32,237 nucleotides of DNA. Source: Chloroflexota bacterium. GTDB taxonomy: Bacteria > Chloroflexota > Dehalococcoidia > Lucifugimonadales > UBA3495. The first letter of the stretch is position 1. Each line of letters starts with the position of its first letter. Shown here in pieces: positions 4,585 through 28,894 of the stretch. The notes beneath the pieces were generated by a model. It was not told where the DNA came from, searched no databases, and worked only from the letters and a program-made list of their open reading frames with translations. The position numbers and the translations under genes are program-made. The stretch covers positions 1-32,237 of the forward strand of contig JAPPGG010000053.1 in NCBI GenBank assembly GCA_028875055.1. Reading direction: 5' to 3'.

Positions 4585-6237
4585 TTACCGGGGCAGGATG
4601 TACTGGGCCGGCTCCGGGTCGGCGGGGGTGCGCCAGGCCAGGCCCAACGGCCCCAGTTCCTCGACTGCCTCCCGGTGGGAGACCCACAGGGGGACGCTCA
4701 CGCCCGCGGCCTGCATCTCCTCCCTCGCCAGTCTCAGGAAGTGGGTCTGGGCGATGTCGTCGTCCAGCACCACCAGGACGGCGGGTTGCGCGCCGTGATC
4801 GTCGGTGGGGCGGAGGGAGGAGTAGTAGCGCAGGTAGGGGGCCAGCCGGGCCGACATGGTGGAGGGCCTGACGGCGCGGCGCTCCCACTCCAGGAAGAAG
4901 GGCCAGGTGGTGTCGCCCCTGCTGAGCAGGCCGAAGGCGTCGGGGCTGACGGCGCGCATCCCGCCCTGGTGTCGAAAATAGCGGGAGGCCCGCCGGGGCG
5001 GGTCCAGCTGCGTCACCTCCCATTCCAGCTGCGCCGCCTGGGTGGTCATGGCGGCCAGGAAGGCGTGGACGGCGGCGGTGTGCGCCAGGTTGCGGAGGAG
5101 TTGCCGGGTCTGCCTGCCCGAGACGTTGGTCCAGTGAAAGGGTTCGCCGGGGAACAGGGGAGCGGCGCTCCAGCGGCTCCTGGCCATGCTCACCGACGTG
5201 CGGTCGCGGCGGGCAAGCATGGCCAGGGCCCGGTCGGCTAGGGCCAGCCGCCCGTTCGCCCCTCCGGGCCGGACAACGAGGTTCAGGGCCTCCAGGGGCA
5301 GCACCACCTGGGAGGCCCGCTGCGGGGAGACGCCCGTCATTCCGGCCAGGTCCTTGATGGAGACCCAGGGCCAGTCGCCGATGAGGTCGATGGCCCTTTT
5401 CTCGGCGGGCCGGAGGACGGCGGGCAGCAGGCAGTCGGGAACGCGCCAGCCCGGTCCGGCCGCGGCCAGGTCGCCGGGCAGGATGGCCCGCTGCGGCTCC
5501 GCCTCTACCGGAAGCTCCCCGCCAGGTTCCAGCCGTTCCAGTACCTGGCGCAAACTCACGGCGGCGTTCACCGCCTGGGGGCTCCACACCGGGTCGTCAA
5601 GTGTTGCCGATACCGCATCGCTTTCGACGGCCAGGAACAGGGGGACGGGAAAGCCGTCCAGCATCCGGCGGGAGTGGCGCAGCCGCACCGCGTCGGGCAT
5701 CAGGACCAGCACCGCGCCGGGCAGCGGCCCCTGGCGCAGCTTCCACATCCGCTTGGCGAAGGGGGTACGGTCGGTGGTATGGCCCCGGCGCACGATGCCT
5801 ACGGTGCGCCCGTCGGGCAGGCTCACCACAGCGTCCAGGGGCGCCGCCCGGAACCACTGGAACGATATGGGGTGGGCCAGCCCGGAGAGAACGGCGGCCA
5901 GCCGGTAGACGGCGGCCACGGCGTCCAGGCGTTCCAGCAGGATGGTCCGCCAGCGCTCCGAGACGGGACGGGACCGGAGCAATTCATCCGTGGAAATCCC
6001 CTCGCCGTAGGCCAGCCGTTCCAGCCCGGCGGCGGTGAGGTGGAACCGCTCGACGGCGGGAAAGTGGGCGCTGGCGTGGGTCACGGCGTCGCAGAGGCCG
6101 TGCCGGTCCAGGCTGGCCACGGCCCCGTGGACCGCGCCCCGGGATCGGCCGGTGATGGCCGCCAGGCCGGTGCGGTCCAGGAAGGGCATCTCGGCCAGCG
6201 CGCGTAATATCTGCGCCTCGCATCCGGCGGGCCTCAT
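4585..6237 (-). CDS. Replication-relaxation family protein (plasmid/ICE DNA-processing)
   Basis: This 550-residue protein is typical of the replication-relaxation proteins found beside VirD4-like genes in mobile elements of high-GC bacteria. The N-terminus is a winged-helix region (about 6-80: TGLAAITGRSRGAVHGAVASL). A second winged helix lies at about 280-345 (SIKDLAGMTGVSPQRASQVV). Each is followed by a region resembling a PD-(D/E)XK-like fold. The first has LDAVVSLPDGR at 134-144. The second has Asp433 and FFLEWERR around 448-454, then a YLRYY helix. It therefore looks internally duplicated. The start overlaps the stop of the coupling protein gene by 4 nt (ATGA). A role in preparing DNA for transfer or in copy control is inferred from family and context. 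Confidence 0.8.
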   Translation of the reverse strand: MRPAGCEAQILRALAEMPFLDRTGLAAITGRSRGAVHGAVASLDRHGLCDAVTHASAHFPAVERFHLTAAGLERLAYGEGISTDELLRSRPVSERWRTILLERLDAVAAVYRLAAVLSGLAHPISFQWFRAAPLDAVVSLPDGRTVGIVRRGHTTDRTPFAKRMWKLRQGPLPGAVLVLMPDAVRLRHSRRMLDGFPVPLFLAVESDAVSATLDDPVWSPQAVNAAVSLRQVLERLEPGGELPVEAEPQRAILPGDLAAAGPGWRVPDCLLPAVLRPAEKRAIDLIGDWPWVSIKDLAGMTGVSPQRASQVVLPLEALNLVVRPGGANGRLALADRALAMLARRDRTSVSMARSRWSAAPLFPGEPFHWTNVSGRQTRQLLRNLAHTAAVHAFLAAMTTQAAQLEWEVTQLDPPRRASRYFRHQGGMRAVSPDAFGLLSRGDTTWPFFLEWERRAVRPSTMSARLAPYLRYYSSLRPTDDHGAQPAVLVVLDDDIAQTHFLRLAREEMQAAGVSVPLWVSHREAVEELGPLGLAWRTPADPEPAQYILPR

Positions 6238-8723
6238 GGCTTCGCCTCCCCGCCGCCCTCACCGGCCTCTCCGGCTGCGTCCCGGAACTCGTCCACCTTC
6301 CGCTGGTCCTCGGCCCCGGCGAAGGCCAGATCCCGGTCCGTCAGGGTGTAGGCCCCGGCGGCGGCGCGTATCCGGTCGGCTATTTCTGGATCGCCGTCCT
6401 CGGGCCTGCGCACCATCATGGAGAAGGCGGGCATCCGCTCCTTGTCCACCGTGGCCCGCACGTAGCAGTGATGCACGTCCAGGGACGTGATGTCGTCCTC
6501 GGTGACCCGCTCCTTGCCCAGCTCCCACACCAGTTGACGGGCGTCGCTGCCCGCCACCTGGAACACCGCCAGGCAGCCCACGTTGGCCAGAATGGTGTCC
6601 CGCATGGTGGGGGACAGGTCGTCCAGCTTGGCCAGGCTCTGGGTGGCCAGGATGAAGGACGCGCCGTACTTGCCCAGTTCCGAAAGCATCGACTCGTAGT
6701 CGACGCCGGGCATGGACTGCATTTCGTCCACGACGATCAACGCGCCCCGCCTCTGCGAGAGAGCCACGCTCTCCTGCTCCCGGATCACCGAGTCCACCAG
6801 GTTGAGCAGGGACGCGCCCACCAATGCGGCCACGTCCCGGCCCACGGCGCCCTGGGCGGTGGACACCAGCAGGATGCCGCCGTCAAGAATCGTCTCCCGC
6901 AAGTCGATGGTGGATCGGGGCTGGCCCAGGATGGCCCGCGCCCGTTTGGACGAGGCGTAGTAGGACAGGCGGGTCTGCACCGGGGCCAGCGCCTCGGCCC
7001 GGTACTGCTGGTGCCAGCCGCCGAAGTCCCGGGCCCACCATTCCAGCAGGTAGGGGTCGGAGACCCGCTTCAGGACTTCGGTGCGGTACCTGTTGTCGGA
7101 GAGCAGCTTCAGCCCGTCCAGGATGGTGTGCTGGCTGCCCTGGTCCGTCTCGGGATGGTCGTTGGCCTCATGCAGGGTCTTGACCGTCTGCTCCAGGATG
7201 GACTGCATCCTGGGTCCCCACTGCTCCCACAGGCCCCTGGCCACCCTGACGACGGAATCTGCGGTGCGGTCCCTATCGGCGAAGACGCGGGTGTCCAGCA
7301 GGTTGATGCCGGGGGCGCGGGACCGGTCGGCCAGGTCTATCAGCTTTACTCGGTCAACCAGGGACTCGGGGACGTGTTCCAGGATTCCGGCCACCAGGTC
7401 GGCGTGGGGGTCCACCACCACGATGGCGTCGCCGTCGCGGCCCTCGGCCTTTTCTTTCAACTTGTGGGCGACCACGTGGTGCATCAGGGTGGACTTGCCC
7501 ATGCGGGTGCGGGCCACGTAGAGGTGGTGGCGGCGCAGCAGGTCCTCGGGGAAGCGGATGGGACGGGGCTTGCCCGCCGTGGTGTCGCCCACCAGGGCCC
7601 CGCCCCTTACCCCTTTTGCGGAGGGGAGCAGCGCCCGGGACCCGGACCGCTCCACCAGGGGCGTCTCGTCCCCGGCCCCCGGCGGGTGCCACAGGGCGGC
7701 GGCCTCGCGGACCCCCAGCACGCTGCGCTTGCCGAACAGCCCCGGCCCGGCGGGGTGGAGGTTCATAATCGGCACAATGGACCTCACGCCGCTGACCTTG
7801 AATCTGGCGCCGGCTGGGTGGTCGAAGTGGCGGTAGGCGGCGGCCACCGCGCCCAGCAATTCCTCGGCCCTTTGCGGGCGGGTGGCCTCCGGCAGCACGG
7901 CGATGACCTGCAACTCGGCGTCAAAGGCGATGCGGGAGACCTTCTCCCTTATCAGCAGCGGGTCGTGGACCCGGCTGCGGGCCTGCTTCCACCGCCACCA
8001 GCCCCAGCCGGCGACCGTGGCGCCCAGCACCGAACCGGCGGCCAGCAGCGCCGTCTTGAGGTACTCGCCGTCCTGCACCCACAGGTAGCCCCTGAGAGCG
8101 GCCAAGGCTCCGGCGCCCAGCACGGCCATGGTCACGCCGTCCAGTTGCAGGGGTTTGGTCTGGTAGGTGTAGGAGGGTTCCCGGTTCTCGGGCACCGCCC
8201 GTTTGTGGGCCCGGGCCTGGTGCTGTTGGGACCAATCGGGACCCAGGGAGCGCAGCAGCAGGCGGCACAGGACCCGCTCCCCCTCCTCAAGTTCCGACAG
8301 GGCGCCCATCAGGGCGATGAGGGGGTCGGAGCCCGGGTCCAGCAGGTCGTCGTCCCGGAAGGTGCGCAGGGGCACGTACTCGGGGCCGTCGGCCCGCAGG
8401 GTCATGCCCCAGGCCCGCTCACCCTCGTGGACGAAGATGGGGTCCTCGTCCACCGGCACCTGGCGGATGCGGGCCTGGGGGTAGTGGGCGGCGAGCTGGC
8501 CTCGCACCACCTGGTCGTCCTGGCAGCGGGCCAGCAGGCTCACGCCGTCCATGTCGGCGGCCAGTTCCAGGGAGAAGGGTTCGGGGACGGCGACGGACTG
8601 GAGCAGGTTCTCCACCCCCAAGAGGGTGCGCTCGCCGGTGCGCGGCGGCGTCACCGCCAGCAGCGCCGGGGGGCGTTTCCTCTGTGCGTCGCCGAACAGC
8701 AGTTTCCTGACGTTGGTATTCAT
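6234..8723 (-). CDS. VirD4/TraG-like type IV coupling ATPase
   Basis: This 829-residue inner-membrane ATPase would link the DNA substrate to the transfer channel. Two hydrophobic segments are at about 198-216 and 224-243. They are followed by a HerA/FtsK-type motor with Walker A ARTRMGKST (404-412) and Walker B ALIVVDEMQS (661-670). A sensor-like ATQS is near 693-696. The first glycine of Walker A is replaced by alanine, while the GKST core is intact. An unusually long, about 195-residue cytoplasmic-looking region precedes the membrane segments. ATG 8723 has GAGGAA upstream. It follows the VirB4 gene and overlaps the replication-relaxation-type gene, as expected for a transfer operon. Confidence 0.87.
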   Translation of the reverse strand: MNTNVRKLLFGDAQRKRPPALLAVTPPRTGERTLLGVENLLQSVAVPEPFSLELAADMDGVSLLARCQDDQVVRGQLAAHYPQARIRQVPVDEDPIFVHEGERAWGMTLRADGPEYVPLRTFRDDDLLDPGSDPLIALMGALSELEEGERVLCRLLLRSLGPDWSQQHQARAHKRAVPENREPSYTYQTKPLQLDGVTMAVLGAGALAALRGYLWVQDGEYLKTALLAAGSVLGATVAGWGWWRWKQARSRVHDPLLIREKVSRIAFDAELQVIAVLPEATRPQRAEELLGAVAAAYRHFDHPAGARFKVSGVRSIVPIMNLHPAGPGLFGKRSVLGVREAAALWHPPGAGDETPLVERSGSRALLPSAKGVRGGALVGDTTAGKPRPIRFPEDLLRRHHLYVARTRMGKSTLMHHVVAHKLKEKAEGRDGDAIVVVDPHADLVAGILEHVPESLVDRVKLIDLADRSRAPGINLLDTRVFADRDRTADSVVRVARGLWEQWGPRMQSILEQTVKTLHEANDHPETDQGSQHTILDGLKLLSDNRYRTEVLKRVSDPYLLEWWARDFGGWHQQYRAEALAPVQTRLSYYASSKRARAILGQPRSTIDLRETILDGGILLVSTAQGAVGRDVAALVGASLLNLVDSVIREQESVALSQRRGALIVVDEMQSMPGVDYESMLSELGKYGASFILATQSLAKLDDLSPTMRDTILANVGCLAVFQVAGSDARQLVWELGKERVTEDDITSLDVHHCYVRATVDKERMPAFSMMVRRPEDGDPEIADRIRAAAGAYTLTDRDLAFAGAEDQRKVDEFRDAAGEAGEGGGEAKP

Positions 8724-8798
8724 AGTCGGTTCCTCGCTATCGGTAATCTTTGCGGCTGATGCCGGACGCCCGCGTAGGTGGCTTCGGACCGGCTTCGC

Positions 8799-11033
8799 CT
8801 AATGTCTGGGTCCGGGCCGCCACTCGATGACCTCGGTCTCCTCCGGCGTGGCCTCGATGCGCACCGGAAAGCGCTGGCCCCGGGCCAGCAGCAGCCCGTC
8901 GCCCCGGGGGCAGGACAGTAGCCAGCGTTGCAACTCCTCGGGCAGGTCAAAGGCTTCGCCCACGGTGCTGACGGCGGCGGCGTCCTGCTGGAGCAGCAGC
9001 TTGAAGGCGGCGTTCTGGAGCAGGGCCCTGCCGGAGTGTCCGGTGATGGCCCGGGAGGAGTCCTCCGAGAGGAGGTCCTGCACGTCCTGGGTGATGAACT
9101 GCAACCCTAGCCGGTGCTTCCTGGCCCGCTTGGCCACGGAGACCATGAAGGCCGCGCCTTCGGGGTGCTGCATGATGCTCCACACCTCGTCCACCACCAG
9201 CAGGCGGGGCCGGGGGTCCTGGGCGGCGGCGGCCCACACTGTCTCGGTGCAGACCATCGCCGCCGCCGGTCTCAGTTCCGGTTCCAGCAGGTGCAGGTCG
9301 AACACCGTGACCAGGGCCTCGCGGGCCAGCAGGTCATCGCCCTCGTCGGAGAGCAGGTCGCGCAGGCTGCCGGTGGCGAAGGGGCGCAGCAGGTGGGCGA
9401 TTTCCGGGGTCTCCCCTTCCAGGTAGGCGTAGAAGTCGCGGAACCCCGTGCGCTCCCGGCGCTGGGCGTAGTAGGAGGCCAGGGCGTGGTCCAAAGAGGA
9501 TCTGCGCTCGGCGCTGAGCCTTTCCCCCACCATCACCTCGATGAGGCGGCGCAGGCTGCCGATGCGCTGGAGCAGTTCTTCCGAGTCGCCCCGGTCTATG
9601 ACGAAGGGGTTCATGCCCTGGCCGGGGACGCCGGGGGACAGCACCCGCCCACCCGCAGCGCGGGCCATGTCGGTGTACTCGCCCTCGGGGTCGATGATGT
9701 AGGCCCGCACGCCCCGGCACAGGCCCCGCAGCACCCCCAGCTTGGTGGCGAAGGATTTTCCAGAACCGGACCTCGCCAGGACGGCGGTATTGGCGTTGAG
9801 GTGGGTGCCGTCGAAGGGGTCGTAGACGATGGGAGCGCAGGCCCTCAGGTCAATGCCGTAGAGGGTGCCGCTGCGGGTGTCCAGGTCCGGCGGGGAGAAG
9901 GGGAATAGTCTCGCCAGACTGGAGGTGTCCAAAGTCCGCCACACCGCCACGGCGTTCAGGCCCAGGGGCAACGTCGAGAGCAGGCCCTCGCGCTGGCGGA
10001 AGGTCAGGTTGTCCAGCTTGCCCAAAGTGGCGGCGAAGTGGGCCCGGGCCTTCTGGGTCAGGTCCTTCAGGGTGTCCTGGTCGTCGGCGTGCAATGTCAC
10101 CGACAACGATGCGTGAAACAGCCGTTCCCGGCCCCGCTGCACCTCGTCCCGCAACCGGCTCACGTCCTCCAGGGCGATCTCGGCCTCCGGCGACATGGAA
10201 CGGCCCCGCTTGAAGGAAAGACTCTGGGCCGACTCGAAGCGGACCTTCTGCCATTCCAGGGTTCGGGCCGCCTGCTCCGTGGGGATGGCGCCCAGGTGGA
10301 CCGACAGGTCCATGGGGGCTCCGGCGGCCATCAGCCCTTGCAGAAAGCCGGGAGCGAGACTGCGGGGCCACTTGCCCAGGTGCAGGGAGCGCACCAGGCG
10401 TCCGCCGATGCGGATATCGCGGCGGTTTACCTCCACTTCCAACTCAGCGTCTTCGTCGCGCTCGGTGGGCGAACCGCCCAGGGCGCAGGCCAGGAGCAGC
10501 AGCTTGAGAGTATCGCCATTCAGGGGAAAGACGCCAAGACCGGCCCGCACCAGCAGCGCCCGCAGCTCGTCGGCGCGGGCGTGCTCACAGACGGCGTAGA
10601 AGCGCCGGTCCAGGATGCCCTCCCGGTTTTCAAGCGTGGTCAGCAGCCGTCCCAGACTGTCGGCGGCATCCTTTGTCTGTTGGGGCAAATCGTCCGGCTG
10701 CGCCGCCGTCAGGTTGCTGCGCAGGGTGGAAAGCACCGGCGGGTGCTGGCGTACCAGCAGTTGCACCGGGAAGTCCACCGCGTTCAGGGAACCGGCGAAG
10801 GCGCCCAGCTTGGGTTCGTCCAGCTCCAGCCCCATCACCTCCAATACCGCCAGCTTCACCCCGTCCAGGCGCACCGGGCCGTCGTCCTCCAGGTGGGACA
10901 GCATGAAGAACAGGGGCAGCGGGGGCGGCGGCGGTTTGGGTTCCGCCACCGCTTCGTCAGTCTCATCAGGTTGGGACCGGCCTGGCGGCCAGCGCCGGGC
11001 CAGGTCCTTCAGATTCGGTAGTGTCGCTTTCAT
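8799..11033 (-). CDS. VirB4/TrbE-like conjugative transfer ATPase
   Basis: This 744-residue protein matches the T4SS VirB4 family, the ATPase that powers pilus assembly and substrate transfer. Walker A is ARSGSGKSF (420-428). The next strand has YIIDPEGEY (445-453), and Walker B is RLLVVDEVW (610-618), followed by the family-typical FITQD (646-650). The N-terminal half is the usual VirB4 partner-binding region and starts with a Pro-rich stretch (EPKPPPPPLP, 31-40). ATG 11033 has AGGAG about 10 nt upstream. It is in the same operon as the pilin-like and PrgI-like genes. Confidence 0.92.
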   Translation of the reverse strand: MKATLPNLKDLARRWPPGRSQPDETDEAVAEPKPPPPPLPLFFMLSHLEDDGPVRLDGVKLAVLEVMGLELDEPKLGAFAGSLNAVDFPVQLLVRQHPPVLSTLRSNLTAAQPDDLPQQTKDAADSLGRLLTTLENREGILDRRFYAVCEHARADELRALLVRAGLGVFPLNGDTLKLLLLACALGGSPTERDEDAELEVEVNRRDIRIGGRLVRSLHLGKWPRSLAPGFLQGLMAAGAPMDLSVHLGAIPTEQAARTLEWQKVRFESAQSLSFKRGRSMSPEAEIALEDVSRLRDEVQRGRERLFHASLSVTLHADDQDTLKDLTQKARAHFAATLGKLDNLTFRQREGLLSTLPLGLNAVAVWRTLDTSSLARLFPFSPPDLDTRSGTLYGIDLRACAPIVYDPFDGTHLNANTAVLARSGSGKSFATKLGVLRGLCRGVRAYIIDPEGEYTDMARAAGGRVLSPGVPGQGMNPFVIDRGDSEELLQRIGSLRRLIEVMVGERLSAERRSSLDHALASYYAQRRERTGFRDFYAYLEGETPEIAHLLRPFATGSLRDLLSDEGDDLLAREALVTVFDLHLLEPELRPAAAMVCTETVWAAAAQDPRPRLLVVDEVWSIMQHPEGAAFMVSVAKRARKHRLGLQFITQDVQDLLSEDSSRAITGHSGRALLQNAAFKLLLQQDAAAVSTVGEAFDLPEELQRWLLSCPRGDGLLLARGQRFPVRIEATPEETEVIEWRPGPRH

Positions 11034-11057
11034 TTCTCGTTGCTCCTCTTGCCTGCT

Positions 11058-11399
11058 CTATGGGATGGGAAATACCTCGACGATGCGGCTGTCGATGGCG
11101 GCGGCGATGCCCTTGGCCAGCAGCACCAGCACCAGGCCCACCACGGCCATGATCACGGCGTTCCTGGCTCTGCCCCTTCCCTCGCCCTCGGCGCCTTCGG
11201 CCATCAGGACGAATCCGGCCCAGACGATGGCGAAGAGGCACAGGCCGACGCCCGCATAGGCCATGCCGGTCAACACCGCGTCGAAGGCGGCCAGCATCTG
11301 TTCCTTCTTTTCCTCCGGGGCCCCGGCGGCGACGGAGGCCATTGCCGCCGCTGGGGACAGGAGGATGGCCTTGACGCGCCCTACCACGGAAAACCCCAC
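11058..11399 (-). CDS. Second pilin-like (VirB2/TrbC-type) two-helix membrane protein
   Basis: This is a small protein of up to 113 residues with two hydrophobic helices, about 46-67 (AYAGVGLCLFAIVWAGFVLM) and 84-104 (AVIMAVVGLVLVLLAKGIAAA). A short basic loop (GRGRARN) separates them, which is the layout of VirB2/TrbC-type conjugative pilins. The frame opens at GTG 11399, 19 nt inside the preceding gene. ATG 11342 is an alternative start that would remove 19 residues. Neither has a convincing ribosome-binding site, so translation may be coupled. Its position directly before virB4 supports a transfer role. Confidence 0.7.
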   Translation of the reverse strand: MGFSVVGRVKAILLSPAAAMASVAAGAPEEKKEQMLAAFDAVLTGMAYAGVGLCLFAIVWAGFVLMAEGAEGEGRGRARNAVIMAVVGLVLVLLAKGIAAAIDSRIVEVFPIP

Positions 11400-13042
11400 C
11401 AGGAGGAATCACCCACCGTGGTCTGCTCCGCCCTGGGCGGTTCTGGGGTGGGAGGGGGCACCACCAGCCCCGCGTAGGGGACGTCGGCCCCCAGGCCCAG
11501 GGGCCGTACCTGCCCGGTAACCGGCGCCGGGGCCAGGGCAATGCTTTCCGTCCGGGTGGGGGTGACCGGGCTTCGTTCACTCTCCACCGCCCGCACGTGC
11601 TCCGGGTGGTGGACGTAGATGCGCAACGTCTTGACGGTGGAGCTTTCGCCGCAACGGCACGTGACCCGCCGGGTGTACACGTCGGTGCGGGCCGGGTGGT
11701 GGACCGTCTGGAGCATGGGCGGACGAGGAACGTTCAGCGCCGCCGTCAGCGCCGCCGTGATCTCCAGGTCGTGGACCGCCTTCCCGTCGGGTACGGCCAG
11801 GGTGAAATTGGTCTCGCCGCCCTGGACGAAGGTCGCGCTGGTCGCGTTGGAGCCGGCGGATACGCTGACTGTGCCGGTGATGCCGGTGACGGATGCGTCC
11901 AGCAGGGCGGGGACCGACTGGCTGAAATGGCCGCCGTACACCGGCAGGTCCACCTCCTGGCGGGTCTCGGCGATGCACTCCGAGGCGATGACGCCCGTGA
12001 TGTTGCCCGGCGTCCACCCCAGGGAGGTCATTTCCAGGTCGCACAGCTCCCCGTCGGCTTTTGGCAGGGGATAGGGAATCTGGTTGCTCTTCAGGGACAC
12101 CGCCCCGCTGCGGCCCAATGCGTCCACCCAGGAGAAGGTGAAGGAGGGGGACGGGCCGTCCAGGGAGAGGTTGTAGCTCTTGGACTGCCCGGCGCTCATG
12201 GGAGTGTTGAATCCCATTCTCAGGGTCCGGCCGTTCCGGCCGCCGTAGGCCCTCCCCCGCAGGCGCAACTCGTGGGCCGCTCGCAGGGTGACGTTGGCGT
12301 GGTTGGCGGTTACGCTGAGCCTCTCGATGAAGACGCGCCGCCCCGGCACCGGGTCCGGCGGGACGAAGTAGATTTCGTCCAGCCGCCAGGCGTCGCCGTA
12401 GGGCCGTTCCTCGGTTTCGTCCTCGGGTTCATCCTCCGGGTCGTCGGCCAGGGCGATGTTGGGCAGCAGCACCAGGGCCAGCGCCGCCAGGGCGCCCACT
12501 CCCGCCACGACCAGGAAGCGGTTCCAGGGTTTACGGTGTTTGACAATTTCCCGTTCGGCCCTGGGCCGGTTGGCGTCGGCGTCCCTGGAACGGCGGCCCT
12601 TGCCGAACCAGCTGTGGGGCCGGAAGGGGGGACGACCCTTCTTTCGCGCCGCCCTGACCGCCTTACCGATCTTCCCTGCGGCCTTCTTCGCCAGCAGCCG
12701 CAGCGGGTCGGGCCTGGCCTCGAGCTGGGGCGGCGGCTCGCTGATGGCGAGCTCCGCCGGACACCCGGCGTAGCGCCGGGCGCCCAGCTTGAATTTCAGG
12801 AGGTCGGCGGCCACCAGGGGCAGCCCCCGGCCTCCCACCTTCCCCACTACAGCGGCTAACCCGACGGTGCCGAGCAGGATGGCGATGCCCAGCTTCAGCC
12901 CCGAGGGGCCGAGGGGAAAGTATCGGTAGACGCCGTAGGCCACGGCGCAGGTCGCCACCACCGCCACGATCTGGGGGAAAGTGAACCACAGCAGCGCCTT
13001 GTCCTCGGCCTGCACGTGGGTCGGTACTTCGTGCTCTCTCAT
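11381..13042 (-). CDS. PrgI/VirB3-like membrane protein fused to a large ectodomain
   Basis: This 553-residue protein starts at ATG 13042, which has AGGAGG 6 nt upstream. The frame is open to 13069, but that start would lie inside the upstream gene. The N-terminus (REHEVPTHVQ, then WFTFPQ) and two close membrane helices (about 18-41 and 47-67) match PrgI-family proteins, the VirB3 counterpart in monoderm T4SSs. A basic cytoplasmic linker (about 110-172) leads to a third helix (175-198). After it comes an acidic patch and about 320 residues of Ser/Thr/Gly-rich, probably beta-sandwich sequence, ending in a Pro-rich tail (VVPPPTPEPP) and WWGFPW. PrgI proteins are usually only about 100-200 residues, so the extracytoplasmic part is a notable addition. 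It may act as a cell-surface adhesin or channel-outer component. Confidence 0.78.
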   Translation of the reverse strand: MREHEVPTHVQAEDKALLWFTFPQIVAVVATCAVAYGVYRYFPLGPSGLKLGIAILLGTVGLAAVVGKVGGRGLPLVAADLLKFKLGARRYAGCPAELAISEPPPQLEARPDPLRLLAKKAAGKIGKAVRAARKKGRPPFRPHSWFGKGRRSRDADANRPRAEREIVKHRKPWNRFLVVAGVGALAALALVLLPNIALADDPEDEPEDETEERPYGDAWRLDEIYFVPPDPVPGRRVFIERLSVTANHANVTLRAAHELRLRGRAYGGRNGRTLRMGFNTPMSAGQSKSYNLSLDGPSPSFTFSWVDALGRSGAVSLKSNQIPYPLPKADGELCDLEMTSLGWTPGNITGVIASECIAETRQEVDLPVYGGHFSQSVPALLDASVTGITGTVSVSAGSNATSATFVQGGETNFTLAVPDGKAVHDLEITAALTAALNVPRPPMLQTVHHPARTDVYTRRVTCRCGESSTVKTLRIYVHHPEHVRAVESERSPVTPTRTESIALAPAPVTGQVRPLGLGADVPYAGLVVPPPTPEPPRAEQTTVGDSSWWGFPW

Positions 13043-13052
13043 TTCTTTCCTC

Positions 13053-13340
13053 CTAGCCGTCGCCGTCATCGCCGCCGCTGGGGTCGGGGACGGTGGGGTC
13101 CACGGGGCTGCCGACCACGGCGTTCATCACCAGTTCGACGACGCCATAGGCGACGAGGGCCAGCACGATTCCCGCCAGGGCGGTCATCATGGCGCTCTTG
13201 CCCCGCTCCATCTGGTTGGGCGCTCCGCTGGCGGTCAGGTACATGTAGGCGCCGTAGATGAAGTAGCCGACGCCCACCACGCCCACCAGGCCCAGCAGGA
13301 TGCCGACGAGGTTCGATATGGTCTGGGTCAGGTCGTCCAT
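13053..13340 (-). CDS. T4SS pilin-type protein (VirB2-like)
   Basis: This 95-residue protein starts at ATG 13340, with AAGGAG upstream. An alternative TTG at 13409 is weaker. The sequence has two membrane helices (about 12-36 and 51-73) joined by a short loop with YIYGAY-like and GKSA elements (FIYGAYMYLTASG, then QMERGKSAMM), which is characteristic of T4SS pilin proteins of Gram-positive and Chloroflexi-type elements. An acidic, Pro/Gly-rich tail follows. It lies between the VirB6-like gene and the PrgI-like gene, with only 10 nt to the latter. It probably forms the extracellular pilus or the membrane scaffold of the channel. Confidence 0.8.
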   Translation of the reverse strand: MDDLTQTISNLVGILLGLVGVVGVGYFIYGAYMYLTASGAPNQMERGKSAMMTALAGIVLALVAYGVVELVMNAVVGSPVDPTVPDPSGGDDGDG

Positions 13341-13487
13341 AGGTTTCTCTCCTTGCGGGTTGATTTCTTGACTTGCCTGTCCATTGGTCTTCTTTTTCGT
13401 AGCCACCAACTGCTTACCGGCACATGGCTCACCTCCCGGGATGGTTGACGGCGCGATACGGGTCCGCGCCCGTAGTTGTCGTTCCGG

Positions 13488-15083
13488 CTACGGCCCTTGG
13501 CTTCTGGGCGTGGGCCCGCCCTGTCCCGCCGGGGTAGAGTTCTGGGCCGCCGAGTTCACCGCGCCCGTCGCGTTGCTGGCCGCGCCCGTGGCCGCCGCAG
13601 CGGCGGCAGCGCCCGCCGGTCCACCGGCGGCACCGCCCGCAATCAGCCCCAGGGCGCGGCCCGAACGCACCATCGAGCCGGGTAGGGACATGCCGAAGTA
13701 GAGGGTGTGCAGCCAGGCGTCGAAGGTGCCGTGATTTCCCAGCATCGAGGGGATGCGTCCGGCCAGGTACATGAAGGCGATGGCCATCAAGAGCATCCAC
13801 ACCAGGTCCTGCCCCGCCTCTCCGCCGCTGATGTCGGCGAACTGTTCGAGGAAGGCGAAAGCCAGGGCCACGGCGATGAGCTGCACCGCCTGCTGGAAAA
13901 CCGTGGTCATGAACAAACGGAGCCAATGCCGGCCCCAGCCCGCCGTGTGCGGCAGAATCCAAAGGCCCAGGGCAATGGGTGCCAAACAGAGCAGGATGTC
14001 GATCAGGGCCAGGCGGAGGACCATCTGCACCAGCAGGTAGAGGACGAAGAAGCCGAAGACCAGGTAGAGCAGGGCGATGAACACGGCGAGGCCGGTGTTG
14101 GCGGCCATCACCGCCGTGAGCAAAGGGTCCAACGGGGCGCGCAGCAAATCGCCGGGGGTGACCTCCAGGGACGCGGCGATGAACTGGGATACCGCGTGGG
14201 CCACGTCGATGACCAGGGCGCACCACCAGAGGGAAGACGCGGCGGCGGTCAACCCCAGCACCAGCCGGGGCGCCATCTCCCGCCAGCCCGACTGGTGGCG
14301 GCCCAGGTGCTCCTGGACGATGAAGCTCAGCCCCATCCAGCCCAGGATCACCATCAATGCCCCTGACGTGACGGCCCACACCGCCGTCCACGCTTTCCTG
14401 ATGAAGGGATGTTCGTAGGTCAGGTTGGGCGGGGTCCCGGTGAGGATGTCGCCCATCAGGCCCCGGGCCTCCCCGTCGCACTCGGCGATTTCCGTTCCGG
14501 TGATTCCCTCCACCACCCCGCACAGGGTCCCGTGGGCGCCCTGCACCAGCCAGCCGGCGGCGGCCCTGGCCCAGCGGGACGGGTCCAGCGCGCCCAGCAC
14601 CCGGTCCCACAACCCCTTGGGCTGGTGGACGGGTACCAGGGCGTGGAAGACGTGCCGCTCCCCGCCGCCGGTGCGGGGCACCCCCAGCACCAGCAGGAAA
14701 GCCTGCTCCGGGTCCAGGTCGGGCTGCTCGTCCAGGGCCGGGTACTCGAAGGTGTACTCCCAGCCCTCGGAGAGCCTCTTCCCGCTGCCCTGGACTCGGT
14801 AGGTGTTGGTGACCCACTCGCCGGTGTCCGGGTGGCGGATGGAGTAGTAGAGCTCGCTGACCTGGCGGCTGAAGATGGGCCGGGCCACGAAGTCCCCCTC
14901 CTTCTTCCGCTCCACCATCTGCCGGTCCTTGTTGACCAGGGTGATGTCGTCGGCAGGCGGGGACTGGGCCAGGGCGACGCCGCTGGCGGGTATGGCGACG
15001 ATGACTGCCAGCAGCAGCGCCGCCAGGAGCGACGCGGCCCGGCGCGGGAGCCGGGGTCTGAATCTCTGGGTCAACTCGTTCAC
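13488..15083 (-). CDS. VirB6/TrbL-like polytopic inner-membrane transfer protein
   Basis: This 531-residue protein starts at GTG 15083, with GGAG just upstream. A signal peptide is visible (residues 1-40: basic RPRLPRRA, hydrophobic LLAALLLAVIVAIPA, then ALA-QS). An exported region of about 185 residues follows, then at least six hydrophobic segments (about 232-255, 272-303, 322-352, 354-378, 388-413, 427-443). The C-terminal tail is Ala/Gly-rich with low complexity. This is the VirB6/TrbL layout, forming the membrane pore of the transfer channel. It is the first gene of the leftward operon. Confidence 0.85.
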   Translation of the reverse strand: MNELTQRFRPRLPRRAASLLAALLLAVIVAIPASGVALAQSPPADDITLVNKDRQMVERKKEGDFVARPIFSRQVSELYYSIRHPDTGEWVTNTYRVQGSGKRLSEGWEYTFEYPALDEQPDLDPEQAFLLVLGVPRTGGGERHVFHALVPVHQPKGLWDRVLGALDPSRWARAAAGWLVQGAHGTLCGVVEGITGTEIAECDGEARGLMGDILTGTPPNLTYEHPFIRKAWTAVWAVTSGALMVILGWMGLSFIVQEHLGRHQSGWREMAPRLVLGLTAAASSLWWCALVIDVAHAVSQFIAASLEVTPGDLLRAPLDPLLTAVMAANTGLAVFIALLYLVFGFFVLYLLVQMVLRLALIDILLCLAPIALGLWILPHTAGWGRHWLRLFMTTVFQQAVQLIAVALAFAFLEQFADISGGEAGQDLVWMLLMAIAFMYLAGRIPSMLGNHGTFDAWLHTLYFGMSLPGSMVRSGRALGLIAGGAAGGPAGAAAAAAATGAASNATGAVNSAAQNSTPAGQGGPTPRSQGP

Positions 15084-15506
15084 CTCTCTCCGGTTTCGAC
15101 GCTGGGCCGTTAGGCCAGCGCCGCCGGAAAGTGTGAAGAAAATCGGCGCCGAAAAAGACCCCTTATAGAGGGCCGCACGGATGCGGCCCTTTACAGGGAC
15201 TCTTTTTTTCCGCCCGCGTCCTGCATCATTGGGGGTGTACAGGAATTTGGTGTTTGTAGTGACTCGGGAAAAGTGCTGGTTTCAAAGCTGAAACAGGTAC
15301 GAATCGAGGGGAAAAGCGGCCCAAACCTGTTAACACTTTGTTGAAAGGTCCCGGTTCAGCCCCGGTACGCAAAACCGGGGTAGGGGGACAACAAGAAAAC
15401 CGGACGCCCCGGCGGGAAATCCTGCAAAACCCCCTATAGGGGTCAGCAAGAAGACACCCCTGGCGGTGTGGCCGGGGTCAAGGTCAGGGGAGACGGAGGC
15501 TGGCTT
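15084..15506. promoter_or_regulatory. Divergent control region between the tra operon and the rightward HTH gene
   Basis: This 423-nt gene-free region separates two divergent units, so it should hold both promoters. I could not name convincing -35/-10 boxes. Visible structures are a perfect 9-bp hairpin (AGGGCCGCA/TGCGGCCCT, 15169-15190, loop CGGA), a 7-bp hairpin (CCCCGGT/ACCGGGG, 15360-15380) and a 12-bp palindrome CCCCTATAGGGG (15431-15442). Two related operator-like sites begin with CCTGTT on opposite strands, one at 15277-15296 (leftward) and one at 15327-15349 (rightward). HTH proteins of this element are natural candidates to bind here. Confidence 0.5.
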
Positions 15507-16355: not shown

Positions 16356-16622
16356 ACGGGCCTGACGTGGACCTTCTTGTCAGCAATTTGGGGAAAATCG
16401 CCAGGGGGGCGGCGCAAGGGGTCTTTTTCTGTCCCGGCGCCTGTGATAATGGCCGTGTTGTCTGGATTTTCCAGGGTTTCCAGCCATAGAAATCCTGGGG
16501 GCACGATCCCCTGTTGCCCGGGTTGACCGTAGGGATGATTCGCTCTCCTGAAAGTCCCCAAGAGGGAATGCTGCCGCTGCGGATTCGACGTAGCTCTCCG
16601 CAGGCAGCGCGGACCGGGCCAG

Positions 16623-16870
16623 GCGGAGTTGATACAGTCCTCCGTCCCCGTTCCAGTCCGGCGGTTGGAGTGTTTAAGTCCTCCGGCCGCCGGGCAACGG
16701 TTCAGCGGTTGGGAACTGATCCTTCCCGTCGCTGGACACCCGTCCGGCGAGTTGGAGTTGACCGCTCCGGTCGTTGGACACCGGGGACGCGGCGGTTGGT
16801 CCCGCTGCGTTCTCACCTGGCCGAGGCGTTGACGGCGCTGCTGGCGGCGCCCCGGCCGGAACCCAAACCA
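16623..16870. repeat. Degenerate tandem repeats with GCGGTTGG-like heads and internal hairpins
   Basis: Units start at 16623, 16661, 16705, 16747, 16792 and 16826, 34-45 nt apart. Several carry a small hairpin just after the head: CGGAG/CTCCG in unit 1, GGAG/CTCC in units 2 and 4, and GGGAA/TTCCC in unit 3. The stem sequence changes while pairing is kept, which suggests selection on structure. Units 3 and 4 also share the block GTCGCTGGACACC / GTCGTTGGACACC. Because spacing varies and units diverge, this is not a CRISPR array. Confidence 0.6.
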
Positions 16871-16981
16871 ACGGCGCAACATAGTTGTCAAGGAGGTGGC
16901 GCACAGGAACCTAAGATATCCCTAACCAACGGCGCATCATCATCGTCAAGGAGGTGACGTACAGAAACAGAACGATATCCC
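16866..16981. repeat. Tandem imperfect 58-bp duplication
   Basis: Two adjacent copies of exactly 58 nt each occupy 16866-16923 and 16924-16981. Both begin AACCAACGGCGCA, both carry TCAAGGAGGTG at the same offset, and both end in GATATCCC. The middle differs. Neither copy has a start codon at a suitable distance after the Shine-Dalgarno-like AAGGAGGTG. Confidence 0.75.
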
Positions 16982-17054
16982 GGATTCCCCTAACCACCGG
17001 TACCACGCTGCGGAGTGATAGCAGGCTCCGCTCCTACTTCCCACTGCGGTCGGA

Positions 17055-17299
17055 GCGTTGGAAACGCCCTGGCCGCTTCCCTACACCTGCGGCAAGGACG
17101 CTTAACACCGACAGCGGCGCCGCGGCTTCGACATGCTCCGGTCGTCGGAAACGACGGACCGGACGCTTACCCCTGCAACGCGGTTGCCACCGGCGCCGTA
17201 GCTGACGGCCTGGCCGGTTGCCGCGCTGCGTTCCTGACCTTCACTTTCTCCCTCACGTAGCGGTTGCCCAGGAACGACACCCCCGTATCGAGTACGGGG
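17055..17299. repeat. Series of short perfect hairpins
   Basis: Perfect small stems are GCGTT-GGA-AACGC (17055-17067), GTCGT-CGGAA-ACGAC (17141-17155), GCAAC-GCG-GTTGC (17175-17187) and CCCCGTA-TCGAG-TACGGGG (17281-17299). The first two share the GGAAACG core and similar flanks (GGTCG before, a GGCC/GGACC-like block and CGCTT after) but have different, still complementary, stems. Confidence 0.6.
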
Positions 17300-17306
17300 C
17301 AGGCTC

Positions 17307-17506
17307 TGGCCGAACTGCGTCCTTCGCCAATCCCCCATACGGCATTGCCCATTGCGCTATTCCGCCCTGGGCGCAGTGCGTCCAGCGCCGGGCGGTTGGT
17401 TGGAGCAACTGACCATCACCCTGGGCGAACTGCGCGTTCCGCCAGCCCTCTTCCAGGCATTTCGCGATGCGTTCCTTAGCCGGGCCGCAGTGCGTACGGC
17501 GCCAGG
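17307..17506. repeat. Related hairpin units around a TGCGT core
   Basis: Four similar units begin at 17307, 17367, 17421 and about 17480, 54-61 nt apart. Each has a CTGGGC- or TGGCC-type left arm, a central AACTGCG or CAGTGCGT, and a right arm ending CGCCA or GCGCC. Examples are TGGCCGAA/TTCGCCA (17307-17329) and CTGGGCGAA with TTCCGCCAG (17421-17445). Related CTGCGTTC cores occur at about 16805 and 17226. Confidence 0.55.
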
Positions 17507-17541
17507 GGTAACTCCAGTTTCACACGGCGTTCGCAAGACAA

Positions 17542-17562
17542 GGGCGGCCGCTTGAGCCGCCC
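17542..17562. terminator. 7-bp GC hairpin upstream of the multi-HTH gene
   Basis: The arms GGGCGGC (17542-17548) and GCCGCCC (17556-17562) pair perfectly around a 7-nt loop. A short A-rich stretch rather than a T-run follows on the plus strand, so termination is uncertain. It closes the hairpin-rich block. Confidence 0.4.
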
Positions 17563-17587
17563 CTGACAAACAAAAATTTGCACACAA

Positions 17588-17622
17588 GAGGGGCCGTCTC
17601 CCAATGCGGGAGGCGGCCCCTC
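17588..17622 (+). promoter_or_regulatory. Strong 15-bp hairpin just before the multi-HTH gene, possible attenuator
   Basis: The arms GAGGGGCCGTCTCCC (17588-17602) and GGGAGGCGGCCCCTC (17608-17622) pair with one G-T wobble around loop AATGC. TCGCTGTTTT follows, and the ribosome-binding site GGAGG is at 17634-17638. The position in the presumed 5' leader, with a short T-run, suggests an attenuator or a translation-controlling structure. Confidence 0.6.
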
Positions 17623-17645
17623 TCGCTGTTTTCGGAGGAAGCGAC

Positions 17646-18866
17646 ATGACCACCACTACCAGTATCAGCATCAACCGGGCGAACCAGGCAGAGACCACCG
17701 GCAACGCCGACGCCAACATCAAGGGACAGGTTGACGCCCTCGACGACACCCTGCTGGCTCAGCAAGTCCAGGCGAATGACCAGGGTAAGAAAGAGGCAGC
17801 GAACAGGGGCAAGCCGGAGAGCGAACTGCGGGCCGCCGCCCGGCGCCAGGGCCTCACCCTCAAGGAACTGGCCGCCCTGATGGGCGCCAGCTACAGCCAC
17901 CTGTGCTCCGTGGCCAACGGACACCGCCCCTGGACTCCCGACCTGCGGGAGAAGGCCATGGCGGTCCTGGGCGAAGTGCCGGGACAGGGCATCGTTTACC
18001 GCCAGGGCGGCGCGGTCACCAGCGAGAGCAGCCATATCCGGGAGCGGGCCAGGGAAAAGGGCATGACCCTCAAGGATCTGTCCCTCATGGTGGGAATGTC
18101 CTACCGCTACATGACCCAGGTGGCAAGGGGCCAACGGAACATGAGCCCGTCGATGCAGGTCAGGGTGGAGTCGGCCCTGGGCGGACCGGTGGAGGTCGCC
18201 CCCGCCGTGTGCGCCAACCGGCATGGGAGCATCGCCAGCGGCGGCAGCAGCTACCTGCGGGAACGGGCCAGGGAGAAGGGCATGAGCATGGGGGAACTGG
18301 CGGACCTGGTGGGCGTGAGCCCCGGGTTCTTGTCCGACGTGGCCCGGGGTCGCCGGAACTTAAGCCCCAAGATGCAGGCACGGGTGGAGCAGGTCCTGGA
18401 CGCTCCCGTCAGGGTTGAGGCCGCGCCGGTCCCCACCGTAGACCCGCGACCCCTGTGGGAGCGGATGGATGCCCACAAGATCAGCCAGAACGAGGCGGCG
18501 CGCCGGGCCGGCATCAGCCCGGCCCATCTCTCCCAGATCATGAACGGCCAGCGCACCCCTTCGGCCAGGGTGCTGCGGAGCCTGCACGGGGTCTTGTTCG
18601 CGCCGACTCCGGCGGAACTGGTGGCGCCGGTGGAGCTCAGGGTGATGGCCTGTAAGAAAGGCGGGCGGAACGGCGTGGTGGTCCAGGGCGCCGGCGGGCC
18701 GGGCGGCGACACCATCCGCACCGGCGGGCGCGTTCCCTGGGGCGCCGAGGTGGAGTTCGCCTATACCAGCGGATACGACAGCCGGGGCCGGGTGTCGGTG
18801 AACCACCTAGTGGACGAGCGAGGCTACAGCGTGATGCTCAACAAGCCGGAACCCGGCGACGCTTAG
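17646..18866 (+). CDS. Protein with four tandem XRE-type HTH domains and a novel C-terminal domain
   Basis: This 406-residue protein starts at ATG 17646, after a clear GGAGG. After a Thr/Asn/Gln-rich N-terminus it has four consecutive Cro/C1-like HTH domains at about 60-108, 130-177, 203-251 and 270-317. The second and third are nearly the same (RERAREKGM, then VARGQRN or VARGRRN and SPKMQARVE-type helices), showing internal duplication. The C-terminal about 75 residues form an unrecognised, probably beta-rich domain (GAEVEFAYTSGYDSRGRVSVNH). Four DNA-reading heads would allow it to bind an array of sites, and a repeat array lies directly upstream. It may organise the DNA of the element or repress transfer. 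Function is inferred. Confidence 0.82.
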   Translation: MTTTTSISINRANQAETTGNADANIKGQVDALDDTLLAQQVQANDQGKKEAANRGKPESELRAAARRQGLTLKELAALMGASYSHLCSVANGHRPWTPDLREKAMAVLGEVPGQGIVYRQGGAVTSESSHIRERAREKGMTLKDLSLMVGMSYRYMTQVARGQRNMSPSMQVRVESALGGPVEVAPAVCANRHGSIASGGSSYLRERAREKGMSMGELADLVGVSPGFLSDVARGRRNLSPKMQARVEQVLDAPVRVEAAPVPTVDPRPLWERMDAHKISQNEAARRAGISPAHLSQIMNGQRTPSARVLRSLHGVLFAPTPAELVAPVELRVMACKKGGRNGVVVQGAGGPGGDTIRTGGRVPWGAEVEFAYTSGYDSRGRVSVNHLVDERGYSVMLNKPEPGDA

Positions 18867-27275: not shown

Positions 27276-28883
27276 ATGCCTACGCTGGACTTCAAAGGCA
27301 AGCAGCACATCTACGCCCACCACCTGACTGTTCCTTACCGGCCGTTGGTTCCCGACGCTGGGCGGTCACTTAACCCGATGGAGGCTGAAGACAACCTCAT
27401 CATCCACGGCGACAACCTCCACGCACTGAAGGCGCTGCTACCCCACTATGCAGGCAAGGTCAAGTGCATCTATATAGACCCGCCCTACAACACGGGCAAC
27501 GAAGGCTGGGCCTACAACGACAATGTGAACAGCCTCCTAATGCGGGAGTGGCTGGATAAAACCGTAGATGGCGAGGACTTGGAGCGCCACGACAAGTGGC
27601 TCTGCATGATGTGGCCAAGGCTCCACCTTCTAAAGGAATTGCTGGCTGAAGACGGGGTGATTTTTGTATCCATTGACGACAACGAGCAACACCATCTGCG
27701 GATGATGATGGATGAGATTTTTGGGGAGGAATCCTTCCTGGCGGAGTTGGTTTGGAAGAGTCGTCAAAACAGGGATAACCGGAACGTCACTGGTGCCTCA
27801 ATCGACCACGAATACATTCTCTGCTATGGGACCTCTATACGAGGCGACGAAAGAAAAACCGGCCTATACTCGAACCCAGACAATGACCCCAGAGGGGACT
27901 GGGCTAGTGGCAACATGGTTGGCCTTGCAACCGTGGAGGCCCGTCCCAACTTACATTTCGACCTAATCGATCCAGAAACGGGAATCAATTACGGCTGCCC
28001 TCCCAGGGGTTGGAGATATGACCAATCTCGTATGGCGGAATTGGCTTCAGAAGGCAGAATACTCTGGCCAGAGAATCCCGAAGGCAGGCCGCGGGTAAAA
28101 GTTTTCCTGGATGAGTTACAAAATACGTTCACCGGGTTTTCTTCGATAGTCGCTGACGGGATATTTACAAGGAACGGAACGCGGGAAATCGAGGAGATTT
28201 TTGGTTCAAGAGTTTTTGAGTTTCCCAAGTCCTATGAACTCATCCGTCAGCTAATTCTCCAAGGGTGCCCGGATGATGGGATTGTATTGGACTCCTTCGC
28301 TGGTTCGGGCACAACTGCCCACGCTGTTCTAGCGTTGAACCAAGGGGACGGCGGCAATCGCAAGTTCATCCTCGTGGAGTGCGAGGACTACGCCGACACC
28401 ATAACAGCCGAGCGGGTGCGGCGGGTTATCAACGGTGTGCCCGACGCTCGGGACACCGCGCTCCGAGAAGGTCTGGGCGGCTCCTTTACCTACTGTACGC
28501 TGGGCGCCCCGATTGACGTAGAGGGAATGCTGACTGGCGACGAACTGCCGGAGTATTCGGCGCTAGCGGCCTACTTGCTCCATACGTCGGACGGGCTTTC
28601 CGCTGGCACCTCAAAATTGACTCCCCAGAACGAGGATGGCTTGTTTTACAGCAGCGACTCGACCGACTACCACCTGCTTTACGAACCCGACCTGGATTAT
28701 CTGAGAAACAGCGACGGAATGCTGAACGAGGAACGGGCGCGGCGCATCAGCCAACTCGGCAAACAGAATGGCAGGAAAGCCGTTGTTTTCGGGCCTGGGA
28801 AGTACATCGGGCAGCGGGAGTTGACATCCCTGGGGATCATCTTCTGCCAATTGCCTTACGAGATTCACAAGGCGGCGCATTAG
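27276..28883 (+). CDS. mod: Type III restriction-modification system methyltransferase (Mod)
   Basis: This 535-residue DNA adenine-N6 methyltransferase is of the beta class. The catalytic motif YIDPPYNTGNE is at 66-76 (DPPY 68-71), and the AdoMet-binding motif DSFAGSGTTAH lies near 336-346. That order, with target recognition in between, is normal for Mod. It would methylate one strand of an asymmetric site and provide sequence specificity for Res. ATG 27276 is preceded by GGGAG that overlaps the stop of the PIN gene. The res gene follows after a few nt. Length and motifs look complete. Confidence 0.93.
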   Translation: MPTLDFKGKQHIYAHHLTVPYRPLVPDAGRSLNPMEAEDNLIIHGDNLHALKALLPHYAGKVKCIYIDPPYNTGNEGWAYNDNVNSLLMREWLDKTVDGEDLERHDKWLCMMWPRLHLLKELLAEDGVIFVSIDDNEQHHLRMMMDEIFGEESFLAELVWKSRQNRDNRNVTGASIDHEYILCYGTSIRGDERKTGLYSNPDNDPRGDWASGNMVGLATVEARPNLHFDLIDPETGINYGCPPRGWRYDQSRMAELASEGRILWPENPEGRPRVKVFLDELQNTFTGFSSIVADGIFTRNGTREIEEIFGSRVFEFPKSYELIRQLILQGCPDDGIVLDSFAGSGTTAHAVLALNQGDGGNRKFILVECEDYADTITAERVRRVINGVPDARDTALREGLGGSFTYCTLGAPIDVEGMLTGDELPEYSALAAYLLHTSDGLSAGTSKLTPQNEDGLFYSSDSTDYHLLYEPDLDYLRNSDGMLNEERARRISQLGKQNGRKAVVFGPGKYIGQRELTSLGIIFCQLPYEIHKAAH

Positions 28884-28894
28884 AGGGCTTGGCG

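Follow-up and report, generated by a model that had tools for sequence, protein, structure and literature searches.

A previously undescribed family of large structured RNAs beside the transfer operon of Chloroflexota conjugative elements

The DNA analysed here, in the following called the window, is a stretch of 32,237 nucleotides (nt) and corresponds to positions 1 to 32,237 of contig JAPPGG010000053.1 (labelled C15) of a Chloroflexota metagenome-assembled genome (MAG; assembly GCA_028875055.1). Close relatives of this genome are Chloroflexi/SAR202 MAGs, which, judging from their names, we take to be of sponge- and marine-type habitats. In the window, an operon for conjugative transfer on the minus strand diverges from a plus-strand series consisting of a gene of the P295 protein family, a long noncoding block, and a gene for a regulator with four helix-turn-helix (HTH) domains. 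The noncoding block is the subject of this work. An initial annotation, made by eye, had placed it at 16623-17506 and had described it as a set of hairpins and degenerate repeats. That interval does lie within the feature, but covers only its inner part, since the structured unit extends from about 16457 to 17623. With high confidence, we regard the block as a structured RNA under conservation; it belongs to a previously undescribed RNA family whose members range from about 0.45 to 1.2 kb.

Several lines of evidence point to a conserved fold. Folded as a single sequence, the region 16457-17456 is considerably more stable than its dinucleotide shuffles (z = -5.8), whereas the neighbouring P295 gene, which served as negative control, is not (z = -0.5). 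For 22 long-form homologues, the consensus fold reaches -417 kcal/mol as compared to -253 ± 10 kcal/mol for alignments with shuffled columns, and many helices of this alignment carry changes on both sides. To avoid circularity, we employed a tree-aware null, in which the fold is derived from the window sequence alone and substitutions are simulated along the tree of the homologues. Hereby, 35 compensatory double substitutions are found in the homologues (null: 10.3 ± 3.3), and 73% of the cells are paired under the window-derived fold (null: 64 ± 1%). The 5' domain, which could be aligned for 105 copies, shows nine compensatory events as compared to 0.4 under the tree-aware null; 94.2% of its cells are paired, and double changes occur in 86 cells versus 28.3 in shuffles. 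When RNAalifold was applied unaided to this 105-copy alignment, only hairpin P2 was recovered, and the register of P1 shifts between types. Open reading frames (ORFs) inside the block carry stop codons and frame-breaking indels in almost all of the 22 homologues, so that a protein-coding block was rejected, in line with the earlier impression that no credible gene is present. The block is hence a long noncoding region with a fold kept by compensatory changes, as is the case for large ornate RNAs. The repeats, hairpins and pairing-preserving stem changes which the initial annotation had reported are all found, e.g. GTCGT/ACGAC is replaced by GTCGC/GCGAC in homologue L048. Homologous blocks and a comparison with shuffled sequences had been proposed there as checks; homologues with preserved pairing exist, and the shuffles fold worse.

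The strand that folds was evaluated from the same alignment. The reverse complement yields a consensus fold of -366 kcal/mol, i.e. the plus strand is better by 51 kcal/mol, while the corresponding difference in shuffles is -2 ± 10. For those pairs that are predicted on both strands, nine of the ten reference sequences have more G-T than A-C (range of the ratio, 0.95 to 2.1). The excess of double changes in the tree-aware test appears on the complementary strand too, because many stems are common to both strands. Thus, the strand argument depends on the folding energy and on the G-T versus A-C counts, which moderately favour a plus-strand RNA.

The anatomy of the RNA and the position of its neighbours are summarized in Table 1. 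A -10-like box with the consensus [GA]A[TC]A[AC]T has a conserved position among 99 distinct copies and precedes the 5' domain by about 7 nt in most of them. Within the 5' domain, the alignment suggests by eye a candidate pseudoknot between the leader and the loop of P1, which in the window would pair UGG(C) with (G)CCA and across the copies UNGG with CCN. The stem of P1 reads CCGAG/CUCGG in L055 and CCAGC/GCUGG in L010. Further downstream, compensatory pairs account for 7 of 15 bp in the hairpin at 16700-16737 and for 6 of 14 bp in that at 16741-16780. The loops of these repeated hairpins include UUGACGUAGCUC, UCGAGCNNNGCUC and UGUUCAAGUC, the last of which resembles a T-loop by eye. Asymmetric bulges and loops of 7-13 nt are found in the helices of the RNA. 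The Shine-Dalgarno-like motif AAGGAGGTG, a perfect one, is present in 17 of 22 long-form (T1) homologues and AGGAGGT in 20 of 22, where 0.064 occurrences of AGGAGGT per sequence are expected; the motif may serve as a decoy for ribosome binding or be the remnant of a gene that was lost. The repeat families that the initial annotation had noted are real, but part of the repeat signal has another origin. A 49-nt unit at 16862/16920 (16862-16968) represents a local tandem duplication with a spacing of 58 and 84% identity, and apparently occurs only once in further long-form homologues, L009 and L010 among them. Likewise, the palindromic repeat at 17280-17307 is an insertion, which is found in some homologues of the RNA and not in others.

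Table 1. Position of the structured RNA, its parts and the neighbouring genes in the window
Feature	Position	Strand	Basis or remark
Giant structured RNA, long form (T1), about 1.17 kb	16457-17623	+	5' end inferred; 3' end placed at terminator-like hairpin
-10-like box GATAAT	16445-16450	+	about 7 nt ahead of the inferred RNA start
Universal 5' domain (model R1): leader UCUGG, hairpins P1 and P2	16457-16528	+	R1 score 75.4 bits; 105 copies aligned
P1 hairpin CCAGGGUUUC / GAAAUCCUGG	16471-16498	+	pairing retained in homologues
P2 hairpin GGGCA / UGCCC	16499-16519	+	both-side changes at 4 of 5 pairs (100 distinct copies)
Array of large GGA..UCC-type hairpins	16569-16859	+	loops like UUGACGUAGCUC or UGUUUAAGUC
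Members of the GGA..UCC array	16569-16609, 16622-16645, 16656-16695, 16700-16737, 16741-16780, 16783-16814, 16816-16859	+	helix list
Internal Shine-Dalgarno-like motif AAGGAGGTG	16890-16898; second copy 16948-16956	+	without usable start codon
Second group of covarying hairpins	17010-17031, 17046-17076, 17086-17126, 17135-17166	+	GCGTT/AACGC and GTCGT/ACGAC stems among them
Dispersed palindromic repeat CCCCCGTATCGAGTACGGGGCAGGCTCT (CCCCGTATCGAGTACGGGGCAGGCTCT)	17280-17307		near-identical copies across many genomes of the order
Long-range helix of repeats GGGCGCAGUGCGUCC with GGGCGAACUGCGCGU	17369-17437	+	compensatory changes at 8 of 14 pairs; 80% of cells paired
Terminator-like hairpin, 16 bp, weak U-run CGCUGUUUUC	17587-17623	+	by scan; 10 nt before next ribosome-binding site
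P295-family gene, 282 aa	15507-16355	+	most frequent upstream neighbour of the RNA
Four-HTH regulator gene, 406 aa	17646-18866	+	Pfam HTH_3/HTH_31; Shine-Dalgarno sequence GGAGG at 17634-17638
Divergent transfer operon	4585-15083	-	Pfam; contents from TrbL/VirB6 to Replic_Relax
TrbL/VirB6	13488-15083	-	Pfam
PrgI-like membrane protein, 562 aa	11381-13069	-	PrgI-like label by eye, from sequence only
TraC/VirB4	8799-11033	-	Pfam
TraG coupling protein	6234-8723	-	Pfam
Replic_Relax protein	4585-6237	-	Pfam

Two kinds of 3' end were found. In most window-type copies that are linked to a four-HTH gene the terminator-like hairpin is kept, including an A-U to C-G compensation. Short forms of about 450-560 nt, which occur in other families, carry at their 3' end an H-type pseudoknot that consists of GGCAUCCG / CGGAUGCC and a second helix. 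This pseudoknot is present in about 22 copies, its second helix (S2) varies on both sides, and it is usually located 17-60 nt ahead of the ribosome-binding site of the next gene. Most RNA copies for which enough sequence is available are followed by an ORF with a ribosome-binding site on the same strand, with scant space for a further promoter.

To follow the distribution of the RNA, a covariance model of the 5' domain (R1) was run on Chloroflexota genomes. The source genome holds 15 copies. In the order, 29 of 250 genomes gave matches, as did 29 of 393 genomes sampled across the class and 10 of 400 sampled across the phylum; the positive genomes include other orders of the class as well as two families of another Chloroflexota class. 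An IS110-like transposase gene (assigned by eye) lies between two RNA copies of this genome's C18 element (L009, 11250-12209). A scan with Rfam 15, which includes GOLLD, ROOL and OLE, had been among the checks suggested in the initial annotation. At the gathering threshold it gave no match, whether for the window, for seven homologous loci or for 11 further loci that are distant or of short form, and at a relaxed threshold it gave chance-level matches only, just as no known family had been recognized by eye. A phage or plasmid RNA was considered and rejected, as phage and plasmid records contained no match and an exact-pattern search of viral contigs found none either. Literature searches for a giant RNA of Chloroflexota or for conjugative elements of sponge Chloroflexota returned nothing relevant. 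Among the readings which the initial annotation had offered, a large structured RNA is the one that finds support: homologues keep the pairing, folding is better on the plus strand, the 5' end closely follows a -10-like box, and Rfam holds no match.

The genes around the RNA are unequally constant. A P295 homologue lies less than 500 nt upstream on the same strand in 65 of 96 testable RNA copies, mostly at a distance of about 100-150 nt, and in many other elements TrbL is likewise divergent from P295. In the AlphaFold2 model of P295 (mean pLDDT, the predicted local distance difference test score, 88), an HTH-like bundle at the N terminus is followed by a long coiled coil and then by a helical C-terminal domain. 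P295 has no match in Pfam, NCBIfam or plasmids, and a Foldseek search with the model returned weak matches to HTHs of the Cro/Xre type and nothing beyond. From its linkage, P295 may be a functional partner of the RNA. Between the divergent transfer operon and P295, the palindrome CCCCTATAGGGG at 15433-15450 is a candidate operator, and a related sequence, TTATAGAGGG, is located further upstream. The gene downstream of the RNA can encode the four-HTH regulator, a small membrane protein together with a 150-aa protein, a RYTGPSA-type protein, a DnaG-like primase or Rad52. In the four-HTH proteins, an N-terminal segment rich in Asn and Thr (encoded at 17646-17760 in the window) evolves fast and is element-specific, as seen from MTTTTSISINRANQ, MKANTTNTVNYN and MIANSASITIDANAN.

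Two further gene groups lie towards the ends of the window. At its left end (1-3070), two large serine recombinases are encoded on opposite strands by overlapping ORFs, possibly the integration module of the element. At 27276-31435, an N6/N4 DNA methylase gene adjoins a gene for a ResIII/DEAD-type protein, a pair reminiscent of type III restriction, which comes after NucS-like, PD-(D/E)XK and IS3-like genes.

Starting from the computed homology, the conserved and strand-biased fold, the conserved ends, the lack of coding capacity and the P295 gene and transfer operon that often accompany the block, we propose that the RNA is a giant leader or noncoding RNA which controls the next operon of the element, perhaps with P295, a proposal whose chances we regard as evenly balanced. 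Transcription would start at 16457 from a promoter of its own directly behind P295. The transcript would fold as a modular chain of hairpins and serve as leader of the following operon, with the H-type pseudoknot in short forms, or the terminator-like hairpin in the window form, as putative junction element before the ribosome-binding site. By termination or by access to this site, the fold may then set the output of the downstream regulatory or establishment operon, here that of the four-HTH protein, while P295 would probably act as autoregulator of the divergent P295 and transfer genes and possibly bind the RNA. In most copies, the RNA indeed lies directly 5' of a same-strand gene and carries a possible expression platform at the junction. 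We lean towards such a cis-acting role because short forms lack a terminator and run closely into a same-strand ribosome-binding site, and because one subtype precedes P295 itself: in the C1, C9 and C49 elements, a second RNA copy is found ahead of the P295 gene, as expected of a leader.

A number of observations weigh against a conserved structured leader. When all pairs of the 22 long forms were tested blindly for covariation, none reached significance individually, although the power of this test was low because only 22 sequences faced about 600,000 pairs, and pair-breaking events on the plus strand are no rarer than in the tree-aware null. The window has no clear -35 element, and a generic promoter scan detects no sigma-70 promoter at the 5' end of the RNA; a TTGACA box is found upstream of two RNA copies in L133. 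P295 is non-adjacent in 31 of 96 copies, in part because these are second tandem copies or copies upstream of P295. Lineages differ in the gene that lies downstream; this would be uncommon for a cis-regulator and suits a trans-acting RNA equally well. Moreover, the terminator-like hairpin of the window form could simply end an independent RNA.

The last two points lead to the main competing reading, which we hold with appreciable but minor confidence, namely a stable, trans-acting ornate RNA in the manner of ROOL, GOLLD and OLE, encoded beside P295 and possibly part of a ribonucleoprotein, for which the downstream gene is merely next in line. Besides the inconstant gene downstream and the terminator-like hairpin conserved in the window type, the size, the ornate hairpin array, the mobile-element setting, the multiple copies, the conserved, unpaired-looking 5' leader and the internal Shine-Dalgarno-like motif would all suit such an RNA. 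It has precedents in the extremely abundant 520-nt long noncoding RNA of Lactobacillus salivarius megaplasmids (PMC5643018) and in the RNA-only complexes formed by the large ornate bacterial RNAs GOLLD, ROOL and OLE (PMC12286853). On the other hand, the short forms continue without terminator into a ribosome-binding site, the sequence matches no large ornate Rfam family, and the fold appears to be a chain of local hairpins rather than a compact long-range fold. We consider it rather unlikely, but worth stating, that the giant RNA represents a new class which works as a ribonucleoprotein with a dedicated protein, P295, and controls how conjugative elements of Chloroflexota are transferred or become established, its repeated bulged and T-loop-like hairpins being sites of protein binding or self-assembly.

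The initial annotation had also considered DNA-based functions. Folded single-stranded DNA acting in conjugation, be it as origin, single-strand initiation site or single-stranded promoter of a leading region, would explain the position next to transfer genes and a Replic_Relax protein as well as the primase and Rad52 types among the downstream genes, and the hairpins would form in single-stranded DNA, too. Yet, the mRNA-like plus strand folds better, while a single-stranded promoter would fold as the complementary strand; several elements hold two tandem copies; and the ends, with a -10-like box on one side and a conserved pseudoknot before a ribosome-binding site on the other, point to a transcript, so that we regard this reading as very improbable. 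Least credible, and next to dismissed, is an array of double-stranded operators for P295 or the four-HTH protein, with the hairpins as palindromic operators: motifs are repeated and both neighbouring proteins have HTH domains, but operators call neither for compensatory changes that preserve pairing instead of sequence nor for a single folding strand, the helices have asymmetric bulges, sizeable loops and a strand bias, and the four-HTH gene lies downstream in only part of the families, being missing from most other lineages and next to most other copies. In many elements another gene follows the RNA, whose commoner companion is P295 on its upstream side.

In comparison with known systems, the likeness to TrbA-type regulators concerns the neighbour and not the RNA: the four-HTH protein is weakly TrbA-like, scoring below threshold against the NCBIfam TrbA model (NF010465; 65 bits, cut-off 96), and has four HTH domains. 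In F-type plasmids, the single-stranded conjugation promoters or initiation sites (Frpo/ssi) are formed by folded DNA ahead of early genes within the transfer region. The block described here shares the location in a transfer region, but differs in its preference for the mRNA-like strand, its length of 0.45-1.2 kb and its many units. Cis-acting mRNA leaders such as riboswitches and long attenuators resemble the RNA in that a promoter-like box comes first and a pseudoknot or terminator-like hairpin ends it near a ribosome-binding site. Unlike riboswitch leaders, it has an inconstant downstream gene and belongs to no aptamer family known to Rfam; it is also several times longer than typical riboswitch leaders.

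Bacterial RNAs of such size and complexity are few, and most of them lack an understood role. The present family offers a basis for further study, with about a hundred diverse copies, a protein that is often found next to it, a setting in a defined type of mobile element and the existence of short and long forms. If the RNA were to control conjugation, this would add an RNA layer to a type of mobile element that is still almost entirely uncharacterized. The closest likeness in kind is to GOLLD, ROOL, OLE and the L. salivarius RNA, all of which are very long, densely structured, noncoding, conserved by covariation and poorly understood in function. GOLLD and ROOL travel with phages or prophages, and in L. 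salivarius the RNA resides on a megaplasmid, whereas the Chloroflexota RNA is carried on conjugative elements. Unlike GOLLD, ROOL and OLE, it comes from another phylum, has no Rfam match, is built of modular repeated hairpins, varies in length from about 450 nt to 1.2 kb among its members, is linked to P295 and a transfer operon, and in its short forms runs into the downstream gene. In conclusion, the RNA is a new family within a known broad kind, the large ornate RNAs.
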